Shown here piece by piece: positions 7,488-28,645 of a stretch of DNA of 64,000 bases (positions are counted from its first letter, which is position 1; the number at the start of each line of letters is the position of its first letter). The notes below the pieces were generated by a model that had not been told where the DNA came from, searched no databases, and saw only the letters and a program-made list of their open reading frames with translations. Both the position numbers and the translations under genes were made by a program. The DNA is from Isosphaeraceae bacterium EP7 (GTDB taxonomy: Bacteria > Planctomycetota > Planctomycetia > Isosphaerales > Isosphaeraceae), in NCBI GenBank assembly GCA_038400315.1, contig CP151667.1, forward strand, positions 1,871,174 to 1,935,173, read 5' to 3'.

Positions 7488-8951
7488 ATGACTGTGCGCA
7501 CAAGGTTCGCCCCCAGCCCCACCGGTTTCCTCCACATCGGCGGGGTGCGGACGGCCCTGTTTAACTGGCTGCTGGCCCGCCACCACGGTGGCCAGTTTAT
7601 TCTGCGCATCGACGACACCGACCAGCAGCGTCACGTCGAGGACGCCGTCCGCCTGATCCTCGAAGGCTTCCGATGGATGGGCATGGACTGGGATGAGGGC
7701 CCCGAGGTCGGCGGACCCCACGGGCCCTATTTCCAGTCGCAGCGCAAACATCTCTACACGGCGGCCGCCAACGCGCTCGTCGCCTCCGGCCACGCCTACC
7801 GCGACTACTCGACGGAACCCGAGCGCGCCGCCGAGAAGGCGCGCGTCGAGGCCCGGAAGGAAGCCTATCGATTCCGGGGTGCCGACCCTGACCCGGCGCT
7901 GGTCGCCCAGTATGAGGCCGAAGGGCGGCCCTACGCCCTCCGCTTCCGGGTCCCGCTGGACCAGAAAGTCGTCGTCCACGACCTGATCAAGGGGGACGTT
8001 GAGCAGAAGACCGACGAGATGGGCGATTTCGTCATCATCCGTCCCGACGGCTCTCCCCTGTACAACTTCGCCAGCGTAGTCGACGACGCCAACCTCGAAA
8101 TCACGCACGTCGTCCGGGCCGAGGAGCATCTGGCCAACACCTTCTCCCAGCTCCTCGTCTTCGAGGCCCTGGGATACCCGCTCCCTGCCTTCGCGCACGT
8201 CCCCTATGTGGCCGCGCCGGGATCGCGGAAGAAGCTCTCCAAGCGTGACGGCGCGGTGGGCCTGGACGAGTATATCGGCAAGGGATATCTCCCCGCGGCC
8301 CTGATGAACTACCTGGCACGGCTGGGCTGGAGCCTGGACGGGACTCAGGAGATCTTCAGCCGCGCCGAGCTGATCGAGAAGTTCACCCTCGACCGCGTGA
8401 ACAGCTCCCCCGCCAGCCACGACTCCGACAAGCTCTTCTGGCTCCAGGGCGAGTACATGAAGGAGCTTACCGTCGACCAAAAAGTCGACGGCTCCCTGCC
8501 GTTCCTCATCGCCGAAGGCCTCGTCACCGATCCGCCAACCGAGGCCCAGCTTGCCCGCGTTCAGGCCGTTGTCCTGGCGCTCGGCGACCGCCTGAAGGTC
8601 TTTTCAGACATCGTCAAGCTGGGCAGCTACTTCTTCAAGGATGAGCTGACCTACGACCCGGACGCGGTGAAGAAGCGCCTGAAGAAGGAGGGGGTCGTGC
8701 CCATCCTCGGCCAGCTGAATGAGCTGTTGGCGACCGTCGAGCTCTTCGACCTTCCCACGCTGGAAGCCGCCGTGCACACCTTCGCCGAGACCAACGGCCT
8801 GCATATGGGCCTGGTCGTCAATGCCCTCAGGGTGGCGACGACCGGTCAAGGGGTCGGCCCCGGCCTTTACGACTGCCTGGCCATTCTGGGCCGGGACGCG
8901 AGTCGCGACCGGATCCGCAAGACGATCGAGATGCTGACCAACGCAGGCTGA
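7488..8951 (+). CDS. gltX: Glutamate--tRNA ligase
   Basis: A 487-residue class Ic aminoacyl-tRNA synthetase that charges tRNA-Glu in the cytoplasm. The HIGH-type signature is at residues 9-19 (PSPTGFLHIGG) followed by TALFNWLLARHH; the KMSKS-type loop is KKLSKRDGA. The C-terminal anticodon-binding domain is complete and length is standard. The frame is open upstream to 7431, but the family N-terminus begins right at MTVRTRFAPSPTG, so the ATG at 7488 is preferred. No strong ribosome binding site is seen. Whether it is discriminating or also charges tRNA-Gln cannot be told from sequence alone. A small anchored protein follows after 16 bases. Confidence 0.96.
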   Translation: MTVRTRFAPSPTGFLHIGGVRTALFNWLLARHHGGQFILRIDDTDQQRHVEDAVRLILEGFRWMGMDWDEGPEVGGPHGPYFQSQRKHLYTAAANALVASGHAYRDYSTEPERAAEKARVEARKEAYRFRGADPDPALVAQYEAEGRPYALRFRVPLDQKVVVHDLIKGDVEQKTDEMGDFVIIRPDGSPLYNFASVVDDANLEITHVVRAEEHLANTFSQLLVFEALGYPLPAFAHVPYVAAPGSRKKLSKRDGAVGLDEYIGKGYLPAALMNYLARLGWSLDGTQEIFSRAELIEKFTLDRVNSSPASHDSDKLFWLQGEYMKELTVDQKVDGSLPFLIAEGLVTDPPTEAQLARVQAVVLALGDRLKVFSDIVKLGSYFFKDELTYDPDAVKKRLKKEGVVPILGQLNELLATVELFDLPTLEAAVHTFAETNGLHMGLVVNALRVATTGQGVGPGLYDCLAILGRDASRDRIRKTIEMLTNAG

Positions 8952-8967
8952 CGCCCGAGGTCACGCG

Positions 8968-9402
8968 ATGAAGACCAAGCGATGGGCCCTGATCCTGGCG
9001 GTGCTCTTGCTGCTGGCCCTGATCGAGTTCGCGATCAGCCGCTGGAGCATCACCGAGGGCTCCATCCACTTCGTCAATCAGGGCCCCACGCCCATCGAGG
9101 GGCTCGCCGTCCTCTTCGAGGGTCGCACGTATACCATCGATCGGATCGCTCCCGGGGCTCGATCAGGTCTCTACGTCGGATCGCCGGGCAAGGGGCCACT
9201 GAGGGTGACCTATCGCTCGGGTGGGGCTTCGTTGGGCGGTTTCAGCCTGCCCGAGTACGACCCGGCAACCCTCGCCGCCGACGGCCAGCGGTTGGTGCTC
9301 GTCGTGGACGGCAACCAGATCATGCGCTACCAGGAAGACACGGCCGCCGGTTCGGGGGGCCCCTGGAACCGATTCAAGGCCGCGCTCGCCCCATATTGGT
9401 AG
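8968..9402 (+). CDS. Small membrane-anchored protein, unknown function
   Basis: A 144-residue protein with one N-terminal hydrophobic segment (WALILAVLLLLALIEFAI, residues 6-23) after a basic start, then about 115 residues rich in beta-forming sequence with Gly turns, presumably outside the cytoplasm. No motif is recognised. GAGG seven to eight bases before the ATG supports the start. It begins 16 bases after gltX on the same strand and is likely co-transcribed with it, but nothing links it functionally to tRNA charging. Confidence 0.7.
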   Translation: MKTKRWALILAVLLLLALIEFAISRWSITEGSIHFVNQGPTPIEGLAVLFEGRTYTIDRIAPGARSGLYVGSPGKGPLRVTYRSGGASLGGFSLPEYDPATLAADGQRLVLVVDGNQIMRYQEDTAAGSGGPWNRFKAALAPYW

Positions 9403-9553
9403 GCCGCAACGACTCCGGACGGAAGTCGGCCCGATTGGCAGCGGCGTGGGCAGTCGCTAAGCTGGTCACCTTGCTTCGGCCGGGCCCCGCGAGGGGGCCG
9501 GTCACCGACGCACTGTCGCGTCGGCCGCCTGCCCAACCCGGAGAGTGGTTCTC

Positions 9554-10456
9554 ATGGCGCTGCTGGTCGTCGGCTCGATCGCCCTGGATTCGGTTCAGAC
9601 CCCGCACGGAATCGTGGAGCATGCCCTGGGCGGCTCGGCCACCTATTTCTCGTACGCGGCCAGCTACTTCACCCCAGTCCGCCTCGTCGGCGTGGTCGGC
9701 GAGGACTTCCCCCCTCAGCACCGCACCTTGCTCGAAGAACGGGGCATCGACACCAGCGGCCTCGTCGTCGAGAAGGGGGGCGAGACCTTCCGCTGGCGAG
9801 GCAAATATGAGGGGGACATGAACGTCGCCGAGACGCTCGAAGTCCATCTCAACGTCCTGGGCACCTTCAACCCGGACCTGCCAGCCTCCTTCATCGACTC
9901 CCCGTTCGTCTTCCTGGCCAACGGCAGCCCGGCCATGCAGCTCAACGTCCTGAGGCAATCGAAGAGCCGCAAGCTCGTCGTCGCCGACACGATGAACTTC
10001 TGGATCGAGACTCAGCGCGACGACCTTTACGCCCTGCTCAAGGAAGTCGACGGCCTGGTCCTCAACGACGGCGAGGCCCGGATGCTGACCGAAGAGGTCA
10101 ACCTCGTCCGCGCCGGCCGGAAGGTCCTCGACCTCGGCCCGCGATTCGTCATCATCAAGAAGGGCGAGCACGGGGCGATGTTCCTGAGCAAGGACGAGTC
10201 CTACGTCATGCCCGCCTTCCCCCTGGCCGACGTCGTGGACCCCACCGGCGCAGGCGACAGCTTCGCCGGCGGTTTCATGGGTTATCTCGCCTCCACCGGT
10301 CGCACCGACGCCGAGGCACTGAAGACCGCCATGGCCTACGGCAGCGTCGTCGCCAGCCTCAACGTCGAAGACTTCAGCCTTCGCCGCTTCCAACGCACCG
10401 AGCGTGTCGACATCGACAACCGCCTGGCCGATTATCGCCAGATGATGGCCTTCTGA
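9554..10456 (+). CDS. PfkB-family carbohydrate or nucleoside kinase
   Basis: A 300-residue ribokinase-fold kinase. The N-terminal substrate signature is GGSATYFSYAASYF with VVGEDF, and the C-terminal signature DPTGAGDSFAGGFMGYL carries the catalytic Asp and the anion hole. The family transfers the ATP gamma-phosphate to a hydroxymethyl group of sugars or nucleosides; the substrate is not readable. An in-frame GTG exists at 9545, but GGAGAG at 9540-9545 lies 8 bases from the ATG at 9554, which also matches the family N-terminus (LLVVGSIALD). A perfect hairpin follows at 10491-10523. Confidence 0.9.
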   Translation: MALLVVGSIALDSVQTPHGIVEHALGGSATYFSYAASYFTPVRLVGVVGEDFPPQHRTLLEERGIDTSGLVVEKGGETFRWRGKYEGDMNVAETLEVHLNVLGTFNPDLPASFIDSPFVFLANGSPAMQLNVLRQSKSRKLVVADTMNFWIETQRDDLYALLKEVDGLVLNDGEARMLTEEVNLVRAGRKVLDLGPRFVIIKKGEHGAMFLSKDESYVMPAFPLADVVDPTGAGDSFAGGFMGYLASTGRTDAEALKTAMAYGSVVASLNVEDFSLRRFQRTERVDIDNRLADYRQMMAF

Positions 10457-13738: not shown

Positions 13739-13894
13739 CCGGTCGAGGCGTTTCAGACCCGGCGATCGCTGCGGAGCATTCCGGAGTCGTCATGTCGAGG
13801 AAGGCTCCGCCTCGCTCACAAGGGGCGAAGACGAGCCGTACAGGACGTCTTCACCGGGGGCGAGGTTTCCTCGAAGGGCACGCGTCTCGTCGCT

Positions 13895-14968
13895 TCAGCC
13901 GGACTTGCCCGGGCTTCGACGAACGAGCCGGAGCGGGATGCCGAGCCAGTTGATCCGTCCTTGGTTGACGGCGACGGCCGTGATGACGACCAGACCCAGG
14001 ACGAGGCCCTCGATCTGGGTCGAGTCGATGCCCCAGTCACGCGGGGTGGCCAGGCCGGTCCCCTTGATGACGACCTGGATCAGGATCAGGCCGAGGACGG
14101 TGCCCCGGATTGAGCCGACTCCGCCGGCCAGGCTGCAACCGCCGACGACGGCCGCGGTGATTGCGTACAGTTCGTACGAGACGCCCATCGTACTGGAACC
14201 CTGGCCGCTCTTGCCCGTGAACAGAATGCCGGCGAGCGACGCGAGCATGCTGGAGACGATGTAGGCCACCGCCTTGAGGCGCTTCGTGGGCAGGCCGCTC
14301 AGGCGGGCCGCCGCCTCGTTGCCCCCGAGCGCGTACAGATGCCGCCCCAGAACGGTCCAGTTCATCATGATCGACGCCACCAGGGCCAGGCAGACGAAGA
14401 TCGGGACCGTGTACCAGGGATCGCTGCCGAGCAGACGATACGAGTCGAACGAGACGTTGATCGACTTGTTCTTGCTGATCAGGGTGGCCAGGCTCCGCAG
14501 GCCAGACATCGTCGCCAGGGTGGCGATGAATGGCGGCAGGCCCAGCTGGTTGATCAGCCAGGCGTGCAGCAGGCCGACGCAGAGGCCCATCAGCAACGTC
14601 AGTGCAATGGCCGATGCGACGACCGCCGCGGAGGGAGGGGTCGGCCCGGCGCTCGCCCCGGGCAGCCACTCGGTGACCAGCTTGGCCGAGACCACCGACG
14701 CCAGGGCGACCACGGCCCCGACGGACAGGTCGATGCCGCCGGCGATGATGACGATGGCCGCGCCCAGGGCCAGGCCACCGAACAGGGCGATCTGATGGAT
14801 CACCGTGCGCAGGCTGTAGGCCGAGAAGAACGAGTGGTTCGGCTCGATCAGGAAGATGATCGCCAGCATCGCCAGGATGCCGACGACCAGGCCCCCCTCT
14901 TTGGGCAGCGAGAATCCTCGGGCCGGGGCCGGGGACTGCGACGGCGGACTGGCTGGGGCGACGCTCAT
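13895..14968 (-). CDS. Sugar-type ABC transporter permease (RbsC/BPD_transp_2 family)
   Basis: A 357-residue inner-membrane permease with eight to ten hydrophobic segments. Family marks are the GGIDLSVGAVVALASV region, LGLPPFIATLATMSGLR, and the EAAARLSGLPTKRLKAVAYIVS cytoplasmic loop, where the EAA-type segment contacts the ATPase. Family members import ribose, galactose, other sugars or autoinducer-2. The ATG at 14968 overlaps the stop of the upstream binding-protein gene (ATGA), so the two are translationally coupled. No ATPase gene lies in this unit, and a terminator follows. Confidence 0.92.
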   Translation of the reverse strand: MSVAPASPPSQSPAPARGFSLPKEGGLVVGILAMLAIIFLIEPNHSFFSAYSLRTVIHQIALFGGLALGAAIVIIAGGIDLSVGAVVALASVVSAKLVTEWLPGASAGPTPPSAAVVASAIALTLLMGLCVGLLHAWLINQLGLPPFIATLATMSGLRSLATLISKNKSINVSFDSYRLLGSDPWYTVPIFVCLALVASIMMNWTVLGRHLYALGGNEAAARLSGLPTKRLKAVAYIVSSMLASLAGILFTGKSGQGSSTMGVSYELYAITAAVVGGCSLAGGVGSIRGTVLGLILIQVVIKGTGLATPRDWGIDSTQIEGLVLGLVVITAVAVNQGRINWLGIPLRLVRRSPGKSG

Positions 14969-16083
14969 GACGACTTCAGGCCCTTCCCGGACATCCACGT
15001 TTTCATCTCTTCAATCGTGATCACATTCTCGCCCTTCACCGGCGAGTCTTTCGACGGCACGATCACTCGGACCCCGGTGTCTCGGGACTTGCCGTCGGGC
15101 AGCACGGCTTTGACCGCCGCGTCGTCCTTGTCCGCCAGGGCCTTCAGGAGCTTGACCCCCTGATAGCCGATCTCGTAAGGATTCTGGCAGATCGTGGCGT
15201 CGATCCGGCCCCCTTCGAGGTGGCCGACGGCCAGCTCATCGAGGTCGAAGGTCACGACGTTCAGCTTCTTGCGCATCTCGGGCGAGGCGCTCGCCTCCTC
15301 GGCGATCCTGGGAGCGTTGTACGACCAGAGGCCGAGCAAAACGCCAACGTCGTCATACTTGCTCAGGGCCGTCTGCACGTTCGAGGCGGCTCGGGCCTTG
15401 TCCGAGCCGTCGTCGAAGATCTCGGTCTGAATGAACTTGTCGCCGGCCCCTTCGAAGAATCCCTCGCGGCGTTCGATCGCGTTGGCCGCCGACGAGGTGC
15501 CGACGAAGACGCAGACCTTCCCTCCCTGCGGCCGGATCGTGGCCGCCGCGTGGCCCGCGGCACGCCCCGCCTCGCGGTTGTTCGTTCCGATATAGGCCGC
15601 CCGCGCATCGGCGGCGGCAGGGGCAATGTCCGAGTCGATGGCGATGACCAGCTTCCCTTGCTTCTGCAATTCACGCATGGCGTCGGCGATTCCCGGGGCG
15701 CTGGCCTCATAGACCGAGACGGCCACGCCCTTGACGTCGGGTAGGCTGATCGCGTCTTCCAGGAGCCTGATCTGGCCGGGAACTTCCTTCTCGTTGCGCC
15801 TCATCTCAACCTGGCAGCCGAAGGCCTCGCCGCCGTCGGTCATCCCCTTCTCAACAGCCGTCCACCAATCCGCGTTGCTATTCGTGATGAACAGGAACCT
15901 CGGCTTCGCAGTGGCCGCCGTCGTCGAGACAGCCCCGCCCGGGGCAGTCCCGCCCGCGGGAGGCGCAGCCGGTTCGCCGCCTCCGCAACCGGCCAGGCCC
16001 AGGGCCAGCAGGGACCCGAACCAGGCCGCGGGCCATGCGTGCCCGGGCCGCCGACGATCAGAGAGCGTGCTGGTTCCCGCCAC
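14965..16083 (-). CDS. Periplasmic sugar-binding lipoprotein (RbsB-like)
   Basis: A 372-residue type I periplasmic binding protein of the Peripla_BP_4 group. The signal peptide ends in the lipobox LAGC, so the mature protein is a lipoprotein. An Ala/Gly/Pro/Thr-rich linker leads to the domain starting RFLFITNSNADWW; IAIDSDIAP, YIGTNNREAG and the C-terminal ICQNPYEIGYQGVKLL are typical of ribose-type binding proteins. The start is the GTG at 16083 with GGAG (plus-strand CTCC at 16092-16095) 8 bases upstream; the frame is open further but that part has no signal peptide. It forms a two-gene operon with the permease. Ligand unknown. Confidence 0.9.
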   Translation of the reverse strand: MAGTSTLSDRRRPGHAWPAAWFGSLLALGLAGCGGGEPAAPPAGGTAPGGAVSTTAATAKPRFLFITNSNADWWTAVEKGMTDGGEAFGCQVEMRRNEKEVPGQIRLLEDAISLPDVKGVAVSVYEASAPGIADAMRELQKQGKLVIAIDSDIAPAAADARAAYIGTNNREAGRAAGHAAATIRPQGGKVCVFVGTSSAANAIERREGFFEGAGDKFIQTEIFDDGSDKARAASNVQTALSKYDDVGVLLGLWSYNAPRIAEEASASPEMRKKLNVVTFDLDELAVGHLEGGRIDATICQNPYEIGYQGVKLLKALADKDDAAVKAVLPDGKSRDTGVRVIVPSKDSPVKGENVITIEEMKTWMSGKGLKSS

Positions 16084-16391
16084 GTCGTATTCTCCACGTT
16101 TCGGCCGGGGCACGCGCGAGGCCCGAGGCCGTCGCGAGACGACCCGACCAGCCTGCCCCAAACCTCGACAACCCGCGGGCGAAGGCCGAGGAATCCGGCC
16201 ATGCCCAACCTTGCGCTCGACCCTGCCGATCATCCTAACCTCGCGGTTGGACGACGGGAACAACCCAACGACCCGCGTTTCAGTGCACCATCAATGCCTC
16301 CCAATTCCCGACCACCGAGATCTCATTCTCCACTCAGGACGGAGGGTCCATGGACGTGTTCCAGGATTCTCAACGAACCACGCCCGGCGAC

Positions 16392-16421
16392 TTGACAGCC
16401 CGAGCAACCATTGGCTATCGT
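16392..16421 (+). promoter_or_regulatory. Promoter of the TPR gene at 16507 (TTGACA-N18-TATCGT)
   Basis: Perfect -35 TTGACA at 16392-16397, TATCGT at 16416-16421, spacer 18; identical hexamers and spacing to the gltX promoter. Predicted start near 16428, just before the palindromic array. Confidence 0.6.
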
Positions 16422-21808: not shown

Positions 21809-23308
21809 TCAGGGGACGGAGACGGGGCCGAGGTCGGTGCCGAGCTTGACCGGCCCCTTCTTGTCGGCGACCGATCGGCCGAATTCGTCGGGCGACCTGA
21901 CGGGGGTGCCGTCCACGGACGCGATGAGCTGCCCCTTCTTGAGGCCGGCCTGCTCGGCGGGTGTCCCGGCGACGACCTCGGTGATCACGACGAAGCCGCG
22001 GAGCATGGCCGCGTCGGGGTCGACGACCATCGGCTGGACGTTCCCCATCGTCGTGCTCATGTGGTCGATGCGCAGGCCACGCCAGGGTGCCGGTCGGTTG
22101 GTGGCGATGATCTCGCCGTCGACGGGGAACTTGGCCAGGACCAGGGTCTTCTCCAGGTCCTGTACGCCCCGGGTGAACGGGTCGACGCGGCGGACCTTGA
22201 TGGAGACCTCGCGGCCGACGGGAAGGGCGTTGACCGCCAGGATCAGGCTGTCGGTGTCGTGGACGGGCCGTTCGCCGACCGAGATGATCGTGTCTCCGCG
22301 GACGATCCCGGCGCGGTCGGCCGGAGACCCCGGTCGGGTCTGCTCGACGCGGGCCAGCCCGTCGACCGGTCGTCCGAATTCAGGGCTGCGGCCGGTGTCC
22401 AGGGTCAGGCCGAGGAAGCCGTACTCGACCTCCTTGCCTTGCTTCAGGGCCTCGATGGCACGCCGGGCCAGGGCGTCGATCGGGATGGCGTAGCCGGCCC
22501 GGCCGTCATAGCCCTCGACGTTCGCGCCGGCGGTGGTCAACCCGACCAGCTCCCCTTTGCGATTGATGACCGCGCCGCCGCTCATGCCCAGGTTGAGCTT
22601 GGCGTCGAGCTGGAGCAGCGAGGCGAGATGCCTGAGCTGGCGGGGGTTCTGGCGCTGGTTGAAGTCATAGGCGGGGGGCTCCAGCTTCCTGGCCAGGTTC
22701 GACAGGATGCCCAAGGAGGCCGACGCCGACCCGTCGCGCGCGGCGTTATAAGGGTTGCCAAGGGCGATCAGGAACGACCCTTTCCGAAGGGTCGCGGCGT
22801 CGCCCAGGGCGATGGGCGTCAGCTTGGGCGGGGGCGAGCCGGGGATCTCGCGGGGCGCGATCACGGCCAGGTCGCTTCGAGGATCGGCGGCGATGATCTC
22901 GGCGGCGAACTGGGGCTGGCTGCGGGTCCGGACGGTCAGGCGTGCGGCGCCTTGAACCACGTGGTAGGCCGTCAGGATCTCACCCTTGGTGCCGATGACC
23001 ACGCCAGAACCATAGTCGAAGGAGAGTTCCTCCTCGGCGTCGACGGGGGCGAACTGGCCGAGCTGGGGGTTGAAACCGTTGATGACGCCAGGCGCCACCC
23101 CGGGCTGCGGCCGACCGCGGACGGCCACGGTTTCCTGGCCCTTCTCGGCCTTCTCCCTCGCGATGGCCACGACCGAGGGCTCGGCCCGCGCGATGGCGTC
23201 GGCCACCGCGTTCTCGAGCGCCTCGACCGGGTCGACGGACTTGGGCTCGTCGGCCTTCGCCGCGGCGGCGAGGAACAGGGCTAAGGCGAGCGCGGCGTAC
23301 TGACGCAT
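21809..23308 (-). CDS. DegP/HtrA-like secreted serine protease with PDZ domains
   Basis: A 499-residue protein with a signal peptide (MRQYAALALALFLAAAAKA). The trypsin-like domain has His116 in LTAYHVV, Asp146 in RSDLAVI and Ser243 in LGMSGGAV (the usual GNSGGP motif, changed around the Ser). Two PDZ-like regions follow: one around EYGFLGLTLDTG through GIVRGDTIISVG, and one near the C-terminus with GTPAEQAGLKKGQLIASVDG. HtrA family proteins degrade or refold damaged envelope proteins. The frame is open to 23419, but the ATG at 23308 starts the signal peptide. The altered residues before the nucleophile might affect the oxyanion hole. Confidence 0.88.
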   Translation of the reverse strand: MRQYAALALALFLAAAAKADEPKSVDPVEALENAVADAIARAEPSVVAIAREKAEKGQETVAVRGRPQPGVAPGVINGFNPQLGQFAPVDAEEELSFDYGSGVVIGTKGEILTAYHVVQGAARLTVRTRSQPQFAAEIIAADPRSDLAVIAPREIPGSPPPKLTPIALGDAATLRKGSFLIALGNPYNAARDGSASASLGILSNLARKLEPPAYDFNQRQNPRQLRHLASLLQLDAKLNLGMSGGAVINRKGELVGLTTAGANVEGYDGRAGYAIPIDALARRAIEALKQGKEVEYGFLGLTLDTGRSPEFGRPVDGLARVEQTRPGSPADRAGIVRGDTIISVGERPVHDTDSLILAVNALPVGREVSIKVRRVDPFTRGVQDLEKTLVLAKFPVDGEIIATNRPAPWRGLRIDHMSTTMGNVQPMVVDPDAAMLRGFVVITEVVAGTPAEQAGLKKGQLIASVDGTPVRSPDEFGRSVADKKGPVKLGTDLGPVSVP

Positions 23309-23896
23309 CGTCGAGAACCCCCGGCGCCAGGCGCCTTCGTTCGAGCCCAATCCGAGCAACCAAAGGGCGGGGGATCGGCCGACCCTCGGCACTCGATCGC
23401 CCGCCAGACCATCTTTCACGTTCCCAGCCTCTCCGACAAGGCCGGCCGTTCATGCCCCGTCTCCGCAACCGCCAGGACGAGGCGCCGGGTTCGTTTCGTT
23501 TTCCCAGAATCGGCCACGCAGTCAGGTCATTCTTGAGCCGGAAGGAGAACTCAACACCTCAAAATGGTCGATCATAAGTCATTATAAATCATTAAGTTGC
23601 GACATAAAATCTTGGACAGAAAATGACGGCTTCCAAAGTCACTTCCGATTCTTTGACAATCGTCATAGGCCTGACCCAAGCCTGTGGCCTATCGCGGACG
23701 TCGGCCCTCGCCTCCAGGCCAAGGCTACTCGGTCGGCCGATTTGGTCGCAAACGTGAGGACCAAGCACGGGGTTCCACCAGGAGGGGGGCAAATGGTTGC
23801 GAAAAAAAAGCGGGAACCGCAGGCCGTCCATCGGACACTCTCTCTGAACAGCACCGCCTCTCTGAACAGCGCCGTGATGGCGAGGAGAACCGGCCC
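23309..23896. other. Divergent intergenic region with an AT-rich core
   Basis: Nearly 590 bases between the divergent protease and sigma-factor genes. The 23540-23670 stretch is strongly AT-rich for this genome and contains ATAAGTCATTATAAATCATTA, with a repeated TCATTA; this is a plausible control region. I could not assign -35/-10 boxes. Reading upstream of the chosen sigma-gene start stays open but is low-complexity and domain-free. Confidence 0.45.
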
Positions 23897-25528
23897 TTGA
23901 CGACCCGGTATGACGGCATGATCGTGCGGCAGCTCGCCTCGCTCTTTGAGGTAGGGAGTTTCCGAGAACTCTCCGACGGCCAGCTCCTGGAGCAATCTCT
24001 GGGAGACGAGCGCGAGGCCGCCGAATTGGCGTTTGGTGCCCTGGTGAAGCGGCATGGGCCGATGGTCCTGCGCGTCTGTTGCAGAGTTCTGGCCGACCCG
24101 CATGACGCCCAGGATGCCTTCCAGGCCACGTTCCTCGTGCTGGCTCGCCGAGGTCGTTCCATCAGGCGGCGTGAGTCGTTGGCAAGCTGGCTCCACGAGG
24201 TCGCGTTGCGAGTCGCCTGTTGCACCCGCAGGGCGAACGCCGTTCGTCAGGCCCACGAGCGGCTCAGGGCCGGGCAGCTGGTCGAGGCGGTGGTTGCCCC
24301 GACCGACGACTCGGCGGAACACGCGACGATGCTGCACGAGGAACTCGCCAGGCTGCCCGAACGGTATCGGGCGGCGGTCGTCCTCTGCGCGTTGGAAGGG
24401 CAGACCTGCGAGGAAGCGGCGAGGCGGCTGGGCTGTCCGGTCGGGACGATCAAAAGTCGGCTGGCGCGGGCCCGCGAGCGACTTCGCCTCCGGCTGGAAC
24501 GCCGAGGGCTGGGGACGGTAGGGTTCGCGGCCTTGCTCACCGCCGAGTCGGCCAGAGCGGCCGTCCCGGCGAGGTTGACTGCTCAGCTCGTGGCCAAAGC
24601 CGGCCGGGCGGGGTCCTCAGGTGTCATTCAAACAGCGGTTGCAGAACTCACACAGGAGGTGTTGACGCTCATGCTGCGAGACCAATTGCGTTACGTTGCG
24701 ATCGGCATGCTGTCCCTGATCGTCGGGGTTTCCGGCGCCGTCGCACTGGCCCGATCCCCCCAGTCTCCGGCCGTGGCCGCGGCGTCAGCCCCCGGGCAGG
24801 CCGAGGCACCCGTCGCAGACTATGTCGTCGAGCCCCCCGACCTGCTCGTGGTCGAGGTGCTCGATGCCCTGCCTGGACGGCCGATCAAGGGAGACCACCT
24901 GGTTCGACCGGATGGGACGTTGTCCCTGGGTTATTACGGAGATGTCTTCGTGGCAGGCCTGACGCTGCGACAGGTCAAGGTCGCGGTCATCGCCAAGCTT
25001 CGCGAAAACCTCGGCGATGACCAGCTCGGACTGATCGAGCCAGACGGGCGTCACCCCAGTCAGAACAGGGTCGTGTCGCCCGAAAAATCGACGCGAGTTC
25101 TCGTGGACGTATCGGCCTACAACAGCAAGTTCTATTACGTCCAGGGGGACGTCGGGTCCCCTGGCAGGCTGCCCGTCACGGGAAATGAGCGGGTACTCGA
25201 CGCGATCAACTTCGCGGGCGGGCTGAACCCGTCCGAGGCTAAACGGAATATCCGGCTGGTCCGCCCGGCCTCTCCGGGCATCTGCTGCGAGCAGGTCTTC
25301 AATGTCGACCTCGACGCCATCGTCAAGGCCGGCGATCAGTCCACCAATCACCGGCTCGGTCCCGGAGACCGCCTGGTGGTCTACCGCGATCCGGTGTCCG
25401 AGACGACAGTAAAGGGTCCGAGCCTCGAGGCACGCTTCGAGTCGATCGAACGCCGGCTGGATGCGATCGAGCGTCGCCTAGAACGGGCTGTCGACCTCCT
25501 GGAGGCCGCACAACCTCCCCGGCCCTAG
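23897..25528 (+). CDS. ECF sigma factor fused to a membrane segment and polysaccharide-export/SLBB domains
   Basis: A 543-residue protein. Sigma region 2 is at about 43-111 (VKRHGPMVLRVCCRVLADP, DAFQATFLVLARRG, SLASWLHEVALRVA) and region 4 at about 143-201 (ARLPERYRAAVVLCALEGQ, EEAARRLGCPVGTIKSRLARAR). A hydrophobic segment follows at 265-284 (YVAIGMLSLIVGVSGAVALA). Beyond it, 307-379 resembles the Poly_export domain of Wza-type proteins (PDLLVVEVLDALPGRPIKG, VRPDGTLSLGYYGDVFVAGLT), 411-497 an SLBB-like beta-grasp (YYVQGDVGSPGRLP, NFAGGLNPSE, LGPGDRLVVY), and 509-536 a short coiled coil. The TTG at 23897 has GAGGAG at 23882-23887, 9 bases away; the ATG at 23918 lacks such a site. This layout would put the export-like part outside the membrane with the sigma domain inside. 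The promoters it recognises are unknown. Confidence 0.85.
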   Translation: MTTRYDGMIVRQLASLFEVGSFRELSDGQLLEQSLGDEREAAELAFGALVKRHGPMVLRVCCRVLADPHDAQDAFQATFLVLARRGRSIRRRESLASWLHEVALRVACCTRRANAVRQAHERLRAGQLVEAVVAPTDDSAEHATMLHEELARLPERYRAAVVLCALEGQTCEEAARRLGCPVGTIKSRLARARERLRLRLERRGLGTVGFAALLTAESARAAVPARLTAQLVAKAGRAGSSGVIQTAVAELTQEVLTLMLRDQLRYVAIGMLSLIVGVSGAVALARSPQSPAVAAASAPGQAEAPVADYVVEPPDLLVVEVLDALPGRPIKGDHLVRPDGTLSLGYYGDVFVAGLTLRQVKVAVIAKLRENLGDDQLGLIEPDGRHPSQNRVVSPEKSTRVLVDVSAYNSKFYYVQGDVGSPGRLPVTGNERVLDAINFAGGLNPSEAKRNIRLVRPASPGICCEQVFNVDLDAIVKAGDQSTNHRLGPGDRLVVYRDPVSETTVKGPSLEARFESIERRLDAIERRLERAVDLLEAAQPPRP

Positions 25529-26036: not shown

Positions 26037-28076
26037 ATGGGTCACGGGTCGAGCGAGCAACTACTCAGGCAGGTGGGCCGGCTGTTCGCGGAGGGGACCA
26101 GCGCGGGGATCAGCTCGACCGAACTCCTGGAACGCTATGCGTCGAGGCGTGACGAGGCGGCGTTCGAAGGGCTGGTGGCGCGGCACGGTCCGATGGTTCT
26201 GGGCGTCTGCCGGCGAATGCTGCGCGACCCTCGGGATGTCGACGACGCCTTCCAGGCGACATTCCTCATCCTGGCGAGGAAAGCGTCGAGCCTGCGCGAC
26301 CCGGGAGGGCTCGCCCCCTGGCTGCACGGGGTGAGCACCAAGGTGGCCGCCCGAGCCCGCTCGCTGGCGATTCGCCGGGGAATCATCGAGCCCAGCGCCG
26401 GTGAGTTGATGACCGACCTCCCGTCGTCGGATCGCTCGTCGCCGGGCGCCGAGTGGGCCGAGCTGCGGCGGGTGCTGGACGAGGAGATCGCTCGCCTGCC
26501 GGAGAACGATCGGACACCGCTGATCCTCTGCGGCCTGGAGGGGCTCAGCCGAGACGAGGCGGCCCGCCGCCTGGGTTGGCCTCCGGGAACGGTCGCCGGC
26601 CGCCTGGCCCGTGCCCGCGAGAAGCTCCGAGGCCGCCTCACTCGCCGCGGCATGACCCTGCCAGCATCCGCGGGACTTGCCCTGGTCCCGGAGTCCTTGA
26701 TCGCCGCCGTGCCGCCCGCCTTGCAGGCCCGCGCCGTCCTGAACCTCGGCGCCGACCTGGGCACCGTCACCCTCTCCTCCACAGCGAGAACCCTGGCCAA
26801 ACGAGCACTCTCCGCCATGGCACTCACCGAGTCGATCAAGCTAAGCGCCACATTCCTCGTCGCGGCCGGAGTCCTGGCGGCCGGCGTGGGAGCCGTCGCT
26901 CAGGGCGTCGGCCCTGCCGGGAGGAATCCCGAAGTCGAGCCAGCTCGACCCATCGCACGCCAGGTTCAAGAACCCGGCCCGGCGATTCCGACCGCGGCGC
27001 AAGACGCCACTCAAACGAAAGTCGCGGCCGAAGGGGCTGGAGGAGCGAACCCGGAAGCGGTGAGCAAGTCGGAGGGTGTCGCGAGTTTGCTCGCTCTCGC
27101 GGAGGCGAGGGTCGAGGACCTGTCGACGATGAAGGCGAAGATTACCTCGCTCATCGTCAAAGACCTGACCGATCTGGAGGTTGATGAGGCCCATCTGGAA
27201 TACTTCCGTAAGAGGATGGTCGAACACAGGAAAGCGGGCGAGGAGGCCGAAAGCAAGGCTCAGAAAGAGCAGTATCGTCGAGAGCAAATCGTCAAAAACT
27301 CGACCTATGGGCCGACGATTGACGGAATCGTGATCGGCCGCCGGGTCTCGGCCGATGAGGCCAAAACGCCCGAAGGCCGGACAGAAATCGAACGCCAGAT
27401 GACGATCCTGAACGCCCGCGAGGACGAGGCCAGACACGAAGCAACCGAGAGCGAACGAAATGAAGCGAAAGCGCGGCTGACCTATCAGAACTTTGCCGAG
27501 GAAGTGTCCGGCAAACGCCGGGATTTACGGGATAGGGAACGAGAACTCGATCGCCTGGAGCATGAGCACGCCAGGGCCGTCCGGGAGGCACTTCGATTCA
27601 AGGTGTCAGCCGAACCCAGGAGAATCGGCGTGGGGGACACGCTCGAAATCGCGGTCCTCCAAGCCCTACCAGGAAGACCGATCAATGGAGAGAGGATCGT
27701 CCGGGAGGATGGGACGATCTCGCTCGGATATTACGGGGAGGTCCAGGTCGCCGGCTTGACGAGGATTGAGGCCAAGGTCAAGGTCGTCACACATCTGACG
27801 AAATCGCTCAGCGATGAACTCCTAGGCTTGGTCGAGGAGGATGGAGGGAGCGGCAAGTTCATCAGGATCCCGCCCGGAAACTCCTCCACCGTTTTCCTGG
27901 ATGATTCGAAGGCGTTCACTGATGAGATGGCCAGGGATCGGGACGATGAAACGCTTCGAGGCGAGATCGAACGGTTGCGGCGGATCGTGAATGAGTCGGG
28001 GAATCTGCCGGCGACGAGGAGGACGAACGCGCGAGTGTTGCCCCAGCCCGCCGAGAACGAGACGGCGAAACCTTGA
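26037..28076 (+). CDS. ECF sigma factor fused to a membrane segment, coiled coil and polysaccharide-export-like domain
   Basis: A 679-residue paralogue-like neighbour of the previous gene. Sigma region 2 is at about 43-110 (LVARHGPMVLGVCRRML, DAFQATFLILARK, LAPWLHGVSTKVAA), region 4 at about 145-203 (EEIARLPENDRTPLILCGLEGLS, DEAARRLGWPPGTVAGRLARAREKLRGRL). A hydrophobic segment is at 268-290. A charged, heptad-rich coiled-coil region spans about 345-520. Residues 521-600 resemble Poly_export (IGVGDTLEIAVLQALPGRPINGERIV, LGYYGEVQVAGLT) and share LPGRPI, LGYYG and VAGLT with the first gene. The SLBB half present in the first gene is missing, replaced by a short charged tail. GGGAGG lies 8 bases before the ATG. 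Confidence 0.85.
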   Translation: MGHGSSEQLLRQVGRLFAEGTSAGISSTELLERYASRRDEAAFEGLVARHGPMVLGVCRRMLRDPRDVDDAFQATFLILARKASSLRDPGGLAPWLHGVSTKVAARARSLAIRRGIIEPSAGELMTDLPSSDRSSPGAEWAELRRVLDEEIARLPENDRTPLILCGLEGLSRDEAARRLGWPPGTVAGRLARAREKLRGRLTRRGMTLPASAGLALVPESLIAAVPPALQARAVLNLGADLGTVTLSSTARTLAKRALSAMALTESIKLSATFLVAAGVLAAGVGAVAQGVGPAGRNPEVEPARPIARQVQEPGPAIPTAAQDATQTKVAAEGAGGANPEAVSKSEGVASLLALAEARVEDLSTMKAKITSLIVKDLTDLEVDEAHLEYFRKRMVEHRKAGEEAESKAQKEQYRREQIVKNSTYGPTIDGIVIGRRVSADEAKTPEGRTEIERQMTILNAREDEARHEATESERNEAKARLTYQNFAEEVSGKRRDLRDRERELDRLEHEHARAVREALRFKVSAEPRRIGVGDTLEIAVLQALPGRPINGERIVREDGTISLGYYGEVQVAGLTRIEAKVKVVTHLTKSLSDELLGLVEEDGGSGKFIRIPPGNSSTVFLDDSKAFTDEMARDRDDETLRGEIERLRRIVNESGNLPATRRTNARVLPQPAENETAKP

Positions 28077-28135: not shown

Positions 28136-28186
28136 GGTCGGCGAATACGACGGACCTCGCGGCTCGGATCGATCTGGAGCATGGCC

Positions 28187-28645
28187 ATGAGAGGCCCCGG
28201 GATCGGGCTGCGGAATTTGCTTTGGCTCGGCTTGATCGTCGCGGTCGACCTGTCGCTCTACAGGGGGGCATTTCGACAGCTGTCCGTGCCGGCGATCGGG
28301 GCTGTCGTCGTCCTGCTCAATGTCGCGCTGACTCGGCTCCTGGTCTGGGGGGGATCGTTCCGCGCGTTCGACTACGGATTTCTCGCGGCCGGGCTCGCAG
28401 CGACATTGGCGACGATCCCCTACAACAGCGATCCGCAGATCCTTCACGGACTGATCAGGCTGTACCGCGATGTGACCGGAGACGTGCAGTTTCTGAAGGT
28501 CTATCGCGTCACAACACTTCATCGGATGGATCGCGCATCCCTCAGCGTCCTGCTCGTCGCCTTCGCGGTGGCTGGCGGAGTCGTCGCCGACCGGGGAGTG
28601 AAGCGAACGAAGGCGACGGGCGTGGCGAACGAATCGACCCATTGA
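28187..28645 (+). CDS. Small integral membrane protein, unknown function
   Basis: A 152-residue protein with three to four hydrophobic segments: about 9-24 (NLLWLGLIVAVDLSLY), 32-51 (VPAIGAVVVLLNVALTRLLV), a weaker one near 62-77, and 115-132 (LSVLLVAFAVAGGVVAD). A hydrophilic loop of about 35 residues precedes the last helix, and the C-terminus is basic. No family is recognised. Two ATGs occur at 28181 and 28187; GGAG at 28176-28179 is correctly spaced (7 bases) only for 28187. Confidence 0.65.
   Translation: MRGPGIGLRNLLWLGLIVAVDLSLYRGAFRQLSVPAIGAVVVLLNVALTRLLVWGGSFRAFDYGFLAAGLAATLATIPYNSDPQILHGLIRLYRDVTGDVQFLKVYRVTTLHRMDRASLSVLLVAFAVAGGVVADRGVKRTKATGVANESTH

Follow-up and report, generated by a model that had tools for sequence, protein, structure and literature searches.

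The window analysed, a stretch of 64,000 nucleotides, comes from a genome of 7.2 Mb that is closest, among named organisms, to Isosphaeraceae and other Planctomycetales. Two genes of the window, called here P1 and P2, encode sigma factors joined through a transmembrane (TM) helix to an exporter-type domain. The following features were assigned in and beside them:

21809..23419, minus strand: HtrA-like protease with Trypsin_2 and two PDZ stretches, divergent from P1 (Pfam)
23684..25528, stop included (25525 without stop), plus strand: P1, sigma-TM-PES-SLBB protein (ORF list, Pfam)
24695..24751, plus strand: P1 transmembrane helix, aa 338-356 (hydropathy)
24809..25381, plus strand: P1 PES (aa 376-441) and SLBB_2 (aa 484-566) (Pfam; VIA-align to Wza 7xff)
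26037..28076, stop included (28073 without stop), plus strand: P2, sigma-TM-coiled-coil-PES protein, 679 aa (ORF list)
26172..26348, plus strand: P2 sigma-70 region 2 (sigma2), aa 46-104, holding Cys58 (Pfam PF04542, E 1.6e-9)
26469..26627, plus strand: P2 sigma-70 region 4 (sigma4), aa 145-197, holding Cys165 (Pfam PF08281, E 2.5e-13)
26841..26897, plus strand: P2 transmembrane helix, aa 269-287 (hydropathy)
26898..27062, plus strand: P2 disordered linker, aa 288-342 (pLDDT about 40)
27063..27611, plus strand: P2 alpha-hairpin, predicted helices aa 343-423 and 445-525, turn 424-444 (AlphaFold2)
27612..27908, plus strand: P2 Wza-type PES domain, aa 526-624 (PF02563, Pfam 526-589; Foldseek)
27918..28001, plus strand: P2 C-terminal helix at the expected SLBB start, aa 628-655 (AlphaFold2 model)

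Domain content and predicted shape

The Pfam search assigned Sigma70_r2 (46-104), Sigma70_r4_2 (145-197) and Poly_export (PES; aa 526-589, E 1e-9) to P2, and sigma2, sigma4, Poly_export and SLBB_2/SLBB to P1, all of these named matches exceeding the curated cut-offs. Judged by the profile matches, the sigma domains of P2 are intact. Hydropathy gave a single TM helix in each protein and no SLBB match was obtained for P2 in the Pfam search, thus the initial annotation was right in describing P2 as a sigma-TM-Poly_export protein without SLBB. P1 starts with GTG as listed, its first ATG codon being residue 79. The PES of P2 is strongly diverged and is devoid of the YxVxPPD lead seen in the SLBB-bearing rows of the alignment, therefore binding to OPX may have been lost altogether.

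Like ECF sigma factors, P2 possesses sigma2 and sigma4 and no other sigma-70 domains, and its only two cysteines, Cys58 and Cys165, provide one Cys each in sigma2 and sigma4, which is an ECF57 trait. The ECF57 proteins, with a Singulisphaera acidiphila example, are in the excerpted text of PMC8999054 planctomycete ECF factors with a long C-terminal extension and the conserved cysteines in sigma2 and sigma4, as is P2, but the extension described there is WD40-like, while that of P2 is TM-hairpin-PES. According to the same excerpt, WD40-like repeats are prevalent in some ECF57 members and not required (PMC8999054); in P2 no such C-terminal repeats were found by Pfam. Since P2 lacks WD40 and was placed by its cysteine trait and not through the models or tree of the ECF classification itself, it is named ECF57-like and is not filed as ECF57. 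It is a new version of the extended ECF sigma factors, a kind already known; no sigma-PES fusion was found in the literature by title or abstract start, which does not by itself prove novelty in print. Membrane association is in line with a finding in Tuwongella immobilis, where detergent-soluble fractions contained some of the ECF sigma factors (PMC8567305).

An AlphaFold2 model was made of P2 aa 258-679 from a 31-row alignment (mean pLDDT 76.6, pTM 0.53). It consists of a disordered post-membrane linker, two 81-residue helices connected by a 21-residue turn, the PES fold and, at the end, one more helix. The predicted coiled coil thus comprises 183 residues, with pLDDT of the block mostly 90-97, in good agreement with the approx. 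175 residues claimed earlier ahead of the export domain. The two helices are predicted to be antiparallel, forming a hairpin of about 120 Å (by arithmetic at 1.5 Å per residue). Since they fold back along each other, the PES domain would lie near the start of the hairpin. A straight spacer was accordingly rejected, and the proposal that P1 and P2 differ in sensor reach lost its ground, since an antiparallel coil need not push the PES outward. Nor is a coil unique to P2, since a crude heptad score found one in the SLBB-bearing fusions of loci L060, L066 and L074 too.

By Foldseek, the best PDB matches of the P2 model were Wza chains (2w8h, 2w8i and 7xff; E 3.8e-4). The P1 model (mean pLDDT 85.7) matched Wza 7xff with a VIA-align Z of 17.4 over 171 residues. 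Structure prediction of both C-terminal halves, suggested in the initial annotation, points to a Wza-like PES in each, P1 being built as PES-SLBB and P2 as hairpin-PES. A kinship of the P2 hairpin with SMC, the dynein stalk or RipA was dropped, as the Z values of 11-13 obtained by VIA-align are common among long helices. In the excerpt of PMC9603273, OPX proteins of Class 3, such as Wza, have a PES with the Wza fold, which P2 shares; in addition, their Poly_export is accompanied by one or more SLBB, and most of them have a signal peptide or lipobox. P1 shows the combination with SLBB; P2 has no SLBB and is fused to a sigma factor.

The surroundings of P2 were less informative. The sigma-70-type promoter scan found no promoter, ECF promoters being outside its scope. 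No conserved neighbours of P2 were detected; the next gene, orf154 (28181-28645), has no Pfam match, and its homologues in the fetched loci were only copies of orf154 itself. In the plasmid collection 0 of 116 matching records covered 80% of the query, and among the 15 matches listed the sigma part alone matched.

Separate histories of P1 and P2

P1 and P2 are adjacent on the same strand and follow the same plan, which would suit a matched pair, either a hetero-oligomer or readers of successive export steps. A comparable order occurs at four other loci (L064/L141, L144, L148, L150), where a sigma-PES-SLBB gene lies directly upstream of a PES-SLBB gene. The 508 bp between P1 and P2, however, suggest no obvious operon. 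By BLASTP the two proteins are 42% identical over the sigma-TM part and 40% over the PES, and on these values together with both sigma trees a recent tandem duplication was rejected. The shared motifs LPGRPI, LGYYG and VAGLT are indeed present in both, but they (LGYYG also as LGFYG) recur in nearly every one of the 31 PES rows in alignment A2, also in those from stand-alone proteins, thus they establish no special link between P1 and P2.

The C-terminal part of P2 had matches in 49 of 59 genomes. With profile HMMs, 86 PES-bearing ORFs remained after duplicate removal in the Isosphaeraceae group, and 29 of these are fused to a sigma factor; these counts refer to the fetched loci (the chosen loci plus 50 from a genome-contig scan), not to all genomes. 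Six sigma-PES fusions are devoid of SLBB: P2 and those of L031, L032, L038, L076 and L099. The L038 protein has two PES and no coil. A sigma factor with two tandem PES and no SLBB is encoded in Singulisphaera sp. GP187 (L122:7062-8870).

The sigma halves were compared in two trees. In the first (57 rows, some own-genome rows being present twice) the SLBB-less proteins were scattered, and the P2 sigma part paired with L009 (97/93, starred), the C-terminus of which is another domain. The second was built on the sigma part only, from 50 rows and fewer columns after five duplicate loci were left out; no starred set in it holds P2. Using this second tree, three groupings were rejected as clades: P1 and P2 as sisters (p-AU 0.0205), the six SLBB-less sigma domains (p-AU 0.0044), and all 29 PES-bearing sigma domains (p-AU 0.00015).

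The PES tree (86 rows on 117 columns, few for the row number) grouped P2, L031, L032, both PES of L038, L099 and L095 in an SLBB-less clade with SH-aLRT 100, a long-branch warning naming P2 with L031. P1 falls outside it. L095 is a stand-alone fragment cut by the contig end, and the PES of L076, SLBB-less as well, lies outside the P2 clade on a long branch. Since the sigma and PES halves show different histories, the modules have been swapped.

The view of P1 and P2 as diverged paralogues holds in so far as each is a sigma-TM-export fusion and their sigma parts fall in one broad family, but sister sigma domains were rejected and the PES clades are separate. Of the five other SLBB-less fusions, none adjoins a sigma-PES-SLBB gene in the fetched flank (one contig stops 0.8 kb downstream), contrary to the expectation that both genes would be adjacent in relatives. 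As for the phylogeny named in the initial annotation as speaking against a pair, the export domains were separately acquired and the pair is not conserved, but the sigma domains do not belong to unrelated ECF groups. P1 is most likely an independently assembled cousin of P2 and not its obligate partner; given the lack of sister relationship in the PES and second sigma trees, the missing pairing elsewhere and the gap, a matched pair seems highly improbable. At L121:1807-4307 a P2-like gene is followed after 165 bp by a closely related second sigma gene, cut by the contig end.

Exporter domains in the extended sigma family

The own-genome protein search gave 34 matches, and 20 extended sigma fusions, P1 and P2 included, were recognised by matches covering the sigma-TM part. 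A TM helix is predicted in 17 of the 18 others, L015 being the one without. The C-terminal modules above the Pfam cut-off were PES (P1, P2), HlyD_3 (L018), OEP (L025), WD40 (L013, L020), PD40 (L017), DUF1559 (L015), and CarboxypepD_reg plus thioredoxin types (L012, L022); CBM9 (L016) and Lipocalin_4 (L014) stayed below it, and STN in L011, also under the cut-off, was not counted.

The HlyD and OEP loci were chosen from two family searches in 41 genomes each. Outside the own genome these chosen loci hold 15 distinct sigma-HlyD ORFs and 5 sigma-OEP ORFs. Pfam confirmed HlyD in L182 and OEP in L201, and a further sigma-HlyD occurs in L212. The sigma-TM-HlyD fusions seen were L018:454-2775 (minus strand), L182, L212, L214 and L216, in tandem in the last two. 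A sigma-TM fusion to a TolC-like OEP lies at L025:540-2645 (plus strand). At L193 of the own genome a stand-alone OEP gene (13848-16421, minus strand) and the sigma-OEP gene (8040-10145) are separated by about 3.7 kb.

The origin of the PES-SLBB domains was followed in a tree of 65 rows, 21 of them sigma-fused, with weak matches and ORFs with long PES-SLBB inserts left out. A single clade of the sigma-fused domains was rejected (p-AU 0.0006). In three cases the starred sister of a fused domain is a stand-alone OPX from the same genome: L070 with L093 (98/96), L066 with L092 (100/97) and L074 with L094 (99/94), L070 and L066 being flagged as long branches. L074 and L094 even have an identical 23-residue start, which includes the lead of the stand-alone protein. 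Fourteen other fused domains fall in one older set, inside which five PES-SLBB genes without sigma are nested; four of these immediately follow a sigma-PES-SLBB gene (L064, L144, L148, L150). The best stand-alone match was the own-genome one for 10 of 23 fused domains, compared with a mean of 0.88 and a maximum of 5 in 1000 label shuffles, in which phylogeny was not controlled for. It could not be upheld that the majority of fused domains follow their own genome, as in the other 13 the own copy was not the best match; P1 is among them, with its own copy at rank 7 of 55.

On these sequence comparisons, this sigma family has repeatedly captured exporter domains, a more interesting result than the P1/P2 pair. 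As one possible interpretation, which we put forward tentatively, sensing would be carried out by a mock exporter subunit (OPX, HlyD adaptor or TolC-like OEP), acquired time after time from the exporters of the same genome and hence matching the real complex; P2 would be an old and specialised variant without SLBB, borne on an alpha-hairpin. If capture within a genome recurs in this way, the partner could be predicted from the sequence.

The captured domains might instead be general-purpose periplasmic modules for adhesion or ligand binding, exchanged in the same way as WD40 or thioredoxin and unrelated to exporters. Most of the own fusions carry such other modules (WD40, CarboxypepD_reg/thioredoxin, DUF1559), and P2 lacks the SLBB, the part predicted to touch the polymer according to the excerpted PMC9603273. 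However, three exporter-subunit types (PES, HlyD, OEP) recur, and some fused PES group with stand-alone OPX of the same genome; we consider this interpretation rather unlikely.

Many stand-alone OPX of this type have GCQTV after a hydrophobic leader, as in lipoproteins, only some of which are flagged by a simple lipobox pattern. In L163 (Singulisphaera acidiphila) the stand-alone OPX is surrounded by DUF697 (dynamin-like) GTPase genes, a gene with no match and genes of cytochrome type. Since this OPX relative lies beside a GTPase gene and no polysaccharide cluster was recognised there, the exporter role of that OPX family is putative. L117 of the own genome has a lipoprotein-like OPX beside a GTPase gene, and its GTPase-like and unmatched genes encode protein starts similar to those of L163. 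A small contig of 58 kb, perhaps a plasmid (G000:C3; L027 and L024), bears both an OPX gene and an extended sigma gene.

Possible mode of action of P2

To our knowledge, how bacteria monitor their envelope-spanning exporters is little understood, as is the large number of extended ECF sigma factors in planctomycetes. A sigma factor with an exporter-subunit domain would be a direct one-protein sensor.

The reading we favour, though with limited confidence, is that P2 is a membrane-anchored ECF57-like sigma factor with an exporter-derived periplasmic sensor, freed most likely by two-step proteolysis. The sensor would be the Wza-type PES without SLBB on its back-folded alpha-hairpin. It may dock on, or compete within, an envelope exporter complex (the OPX ring or an inner-membrane partner), and an altered complex would alter the packing of the hairpin and PES. 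The sigma domain would then be freed, probably as in IutY, by one cut outside, HtrA- or Prc-like, and one RseP-like cut in the membrane, and would promote the expression of envelope or export genes.

The proposed proteolytic release is modelled on IutY of Pseudomonas putida (ECF243), a sigma-TM-periplasmic fusion that Prc and RseP cut (PMC9249621). Like P2, it has a cytoplasmic sigma factor, one TM helix and a periplasmic domain in one chain, but on the periplasmic side IutY has a FecR-like domain paired with a TonB-dependent receptor (PMC9249621, PMC8999054), and P2 has PES plus hairpin. No FecR-like anti-sigma domain matched P2 in Pfam up to E 0.1, thus P2 would work like IutY without being of the IutY type. 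The own genome has several M50 proteases, besides 5 Poly_export and 2 Wzz matches. HtrA genes adjoin P1, divergently, and the sigma-HlyD sets of L214 and L216, after which the HtrA-like gene follows. The protease encoded at 21809..23419 is a candidate site-1 protease. These HtrA links are few, however, and since no signal peptide was evident by eye in the HtrA-like proteins of L214 and L216, the link is weak.

P2 could also act while tethered, its periplasmic part setting the oligomer state or position with no proteolysis, as in membrane-bound one-component regulators. The predicted hairpin and C-terminal helices could drive oligomerisation, the two-cysteine trait of ECF57 is linked to conformational change in the excerpt of PMC8999054, and the anti-sigma ZAS motif HxxxCxxC is absent from P1, P2 and the 18 other own fusions. 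On the other hand the closest tested precedent, IutY, requires proteolysis (PMC9249621), and tethered action appears to us doubtful. Proteolytic release remains preferred.

Another chassis, too, bears an outer PES in what is probably a signalling protein. The protein encoded at L152:6495-10886 combines a BlaR1-type M56 peptidase with PES, SLBB and CarboxypepD_reg domains; it resembles P2 in the outer PES, but its chassis is a protease and that of P2 a sigma factor. At L073:4049-8931 four consecutive PES-SLBB genes lie on one strand.
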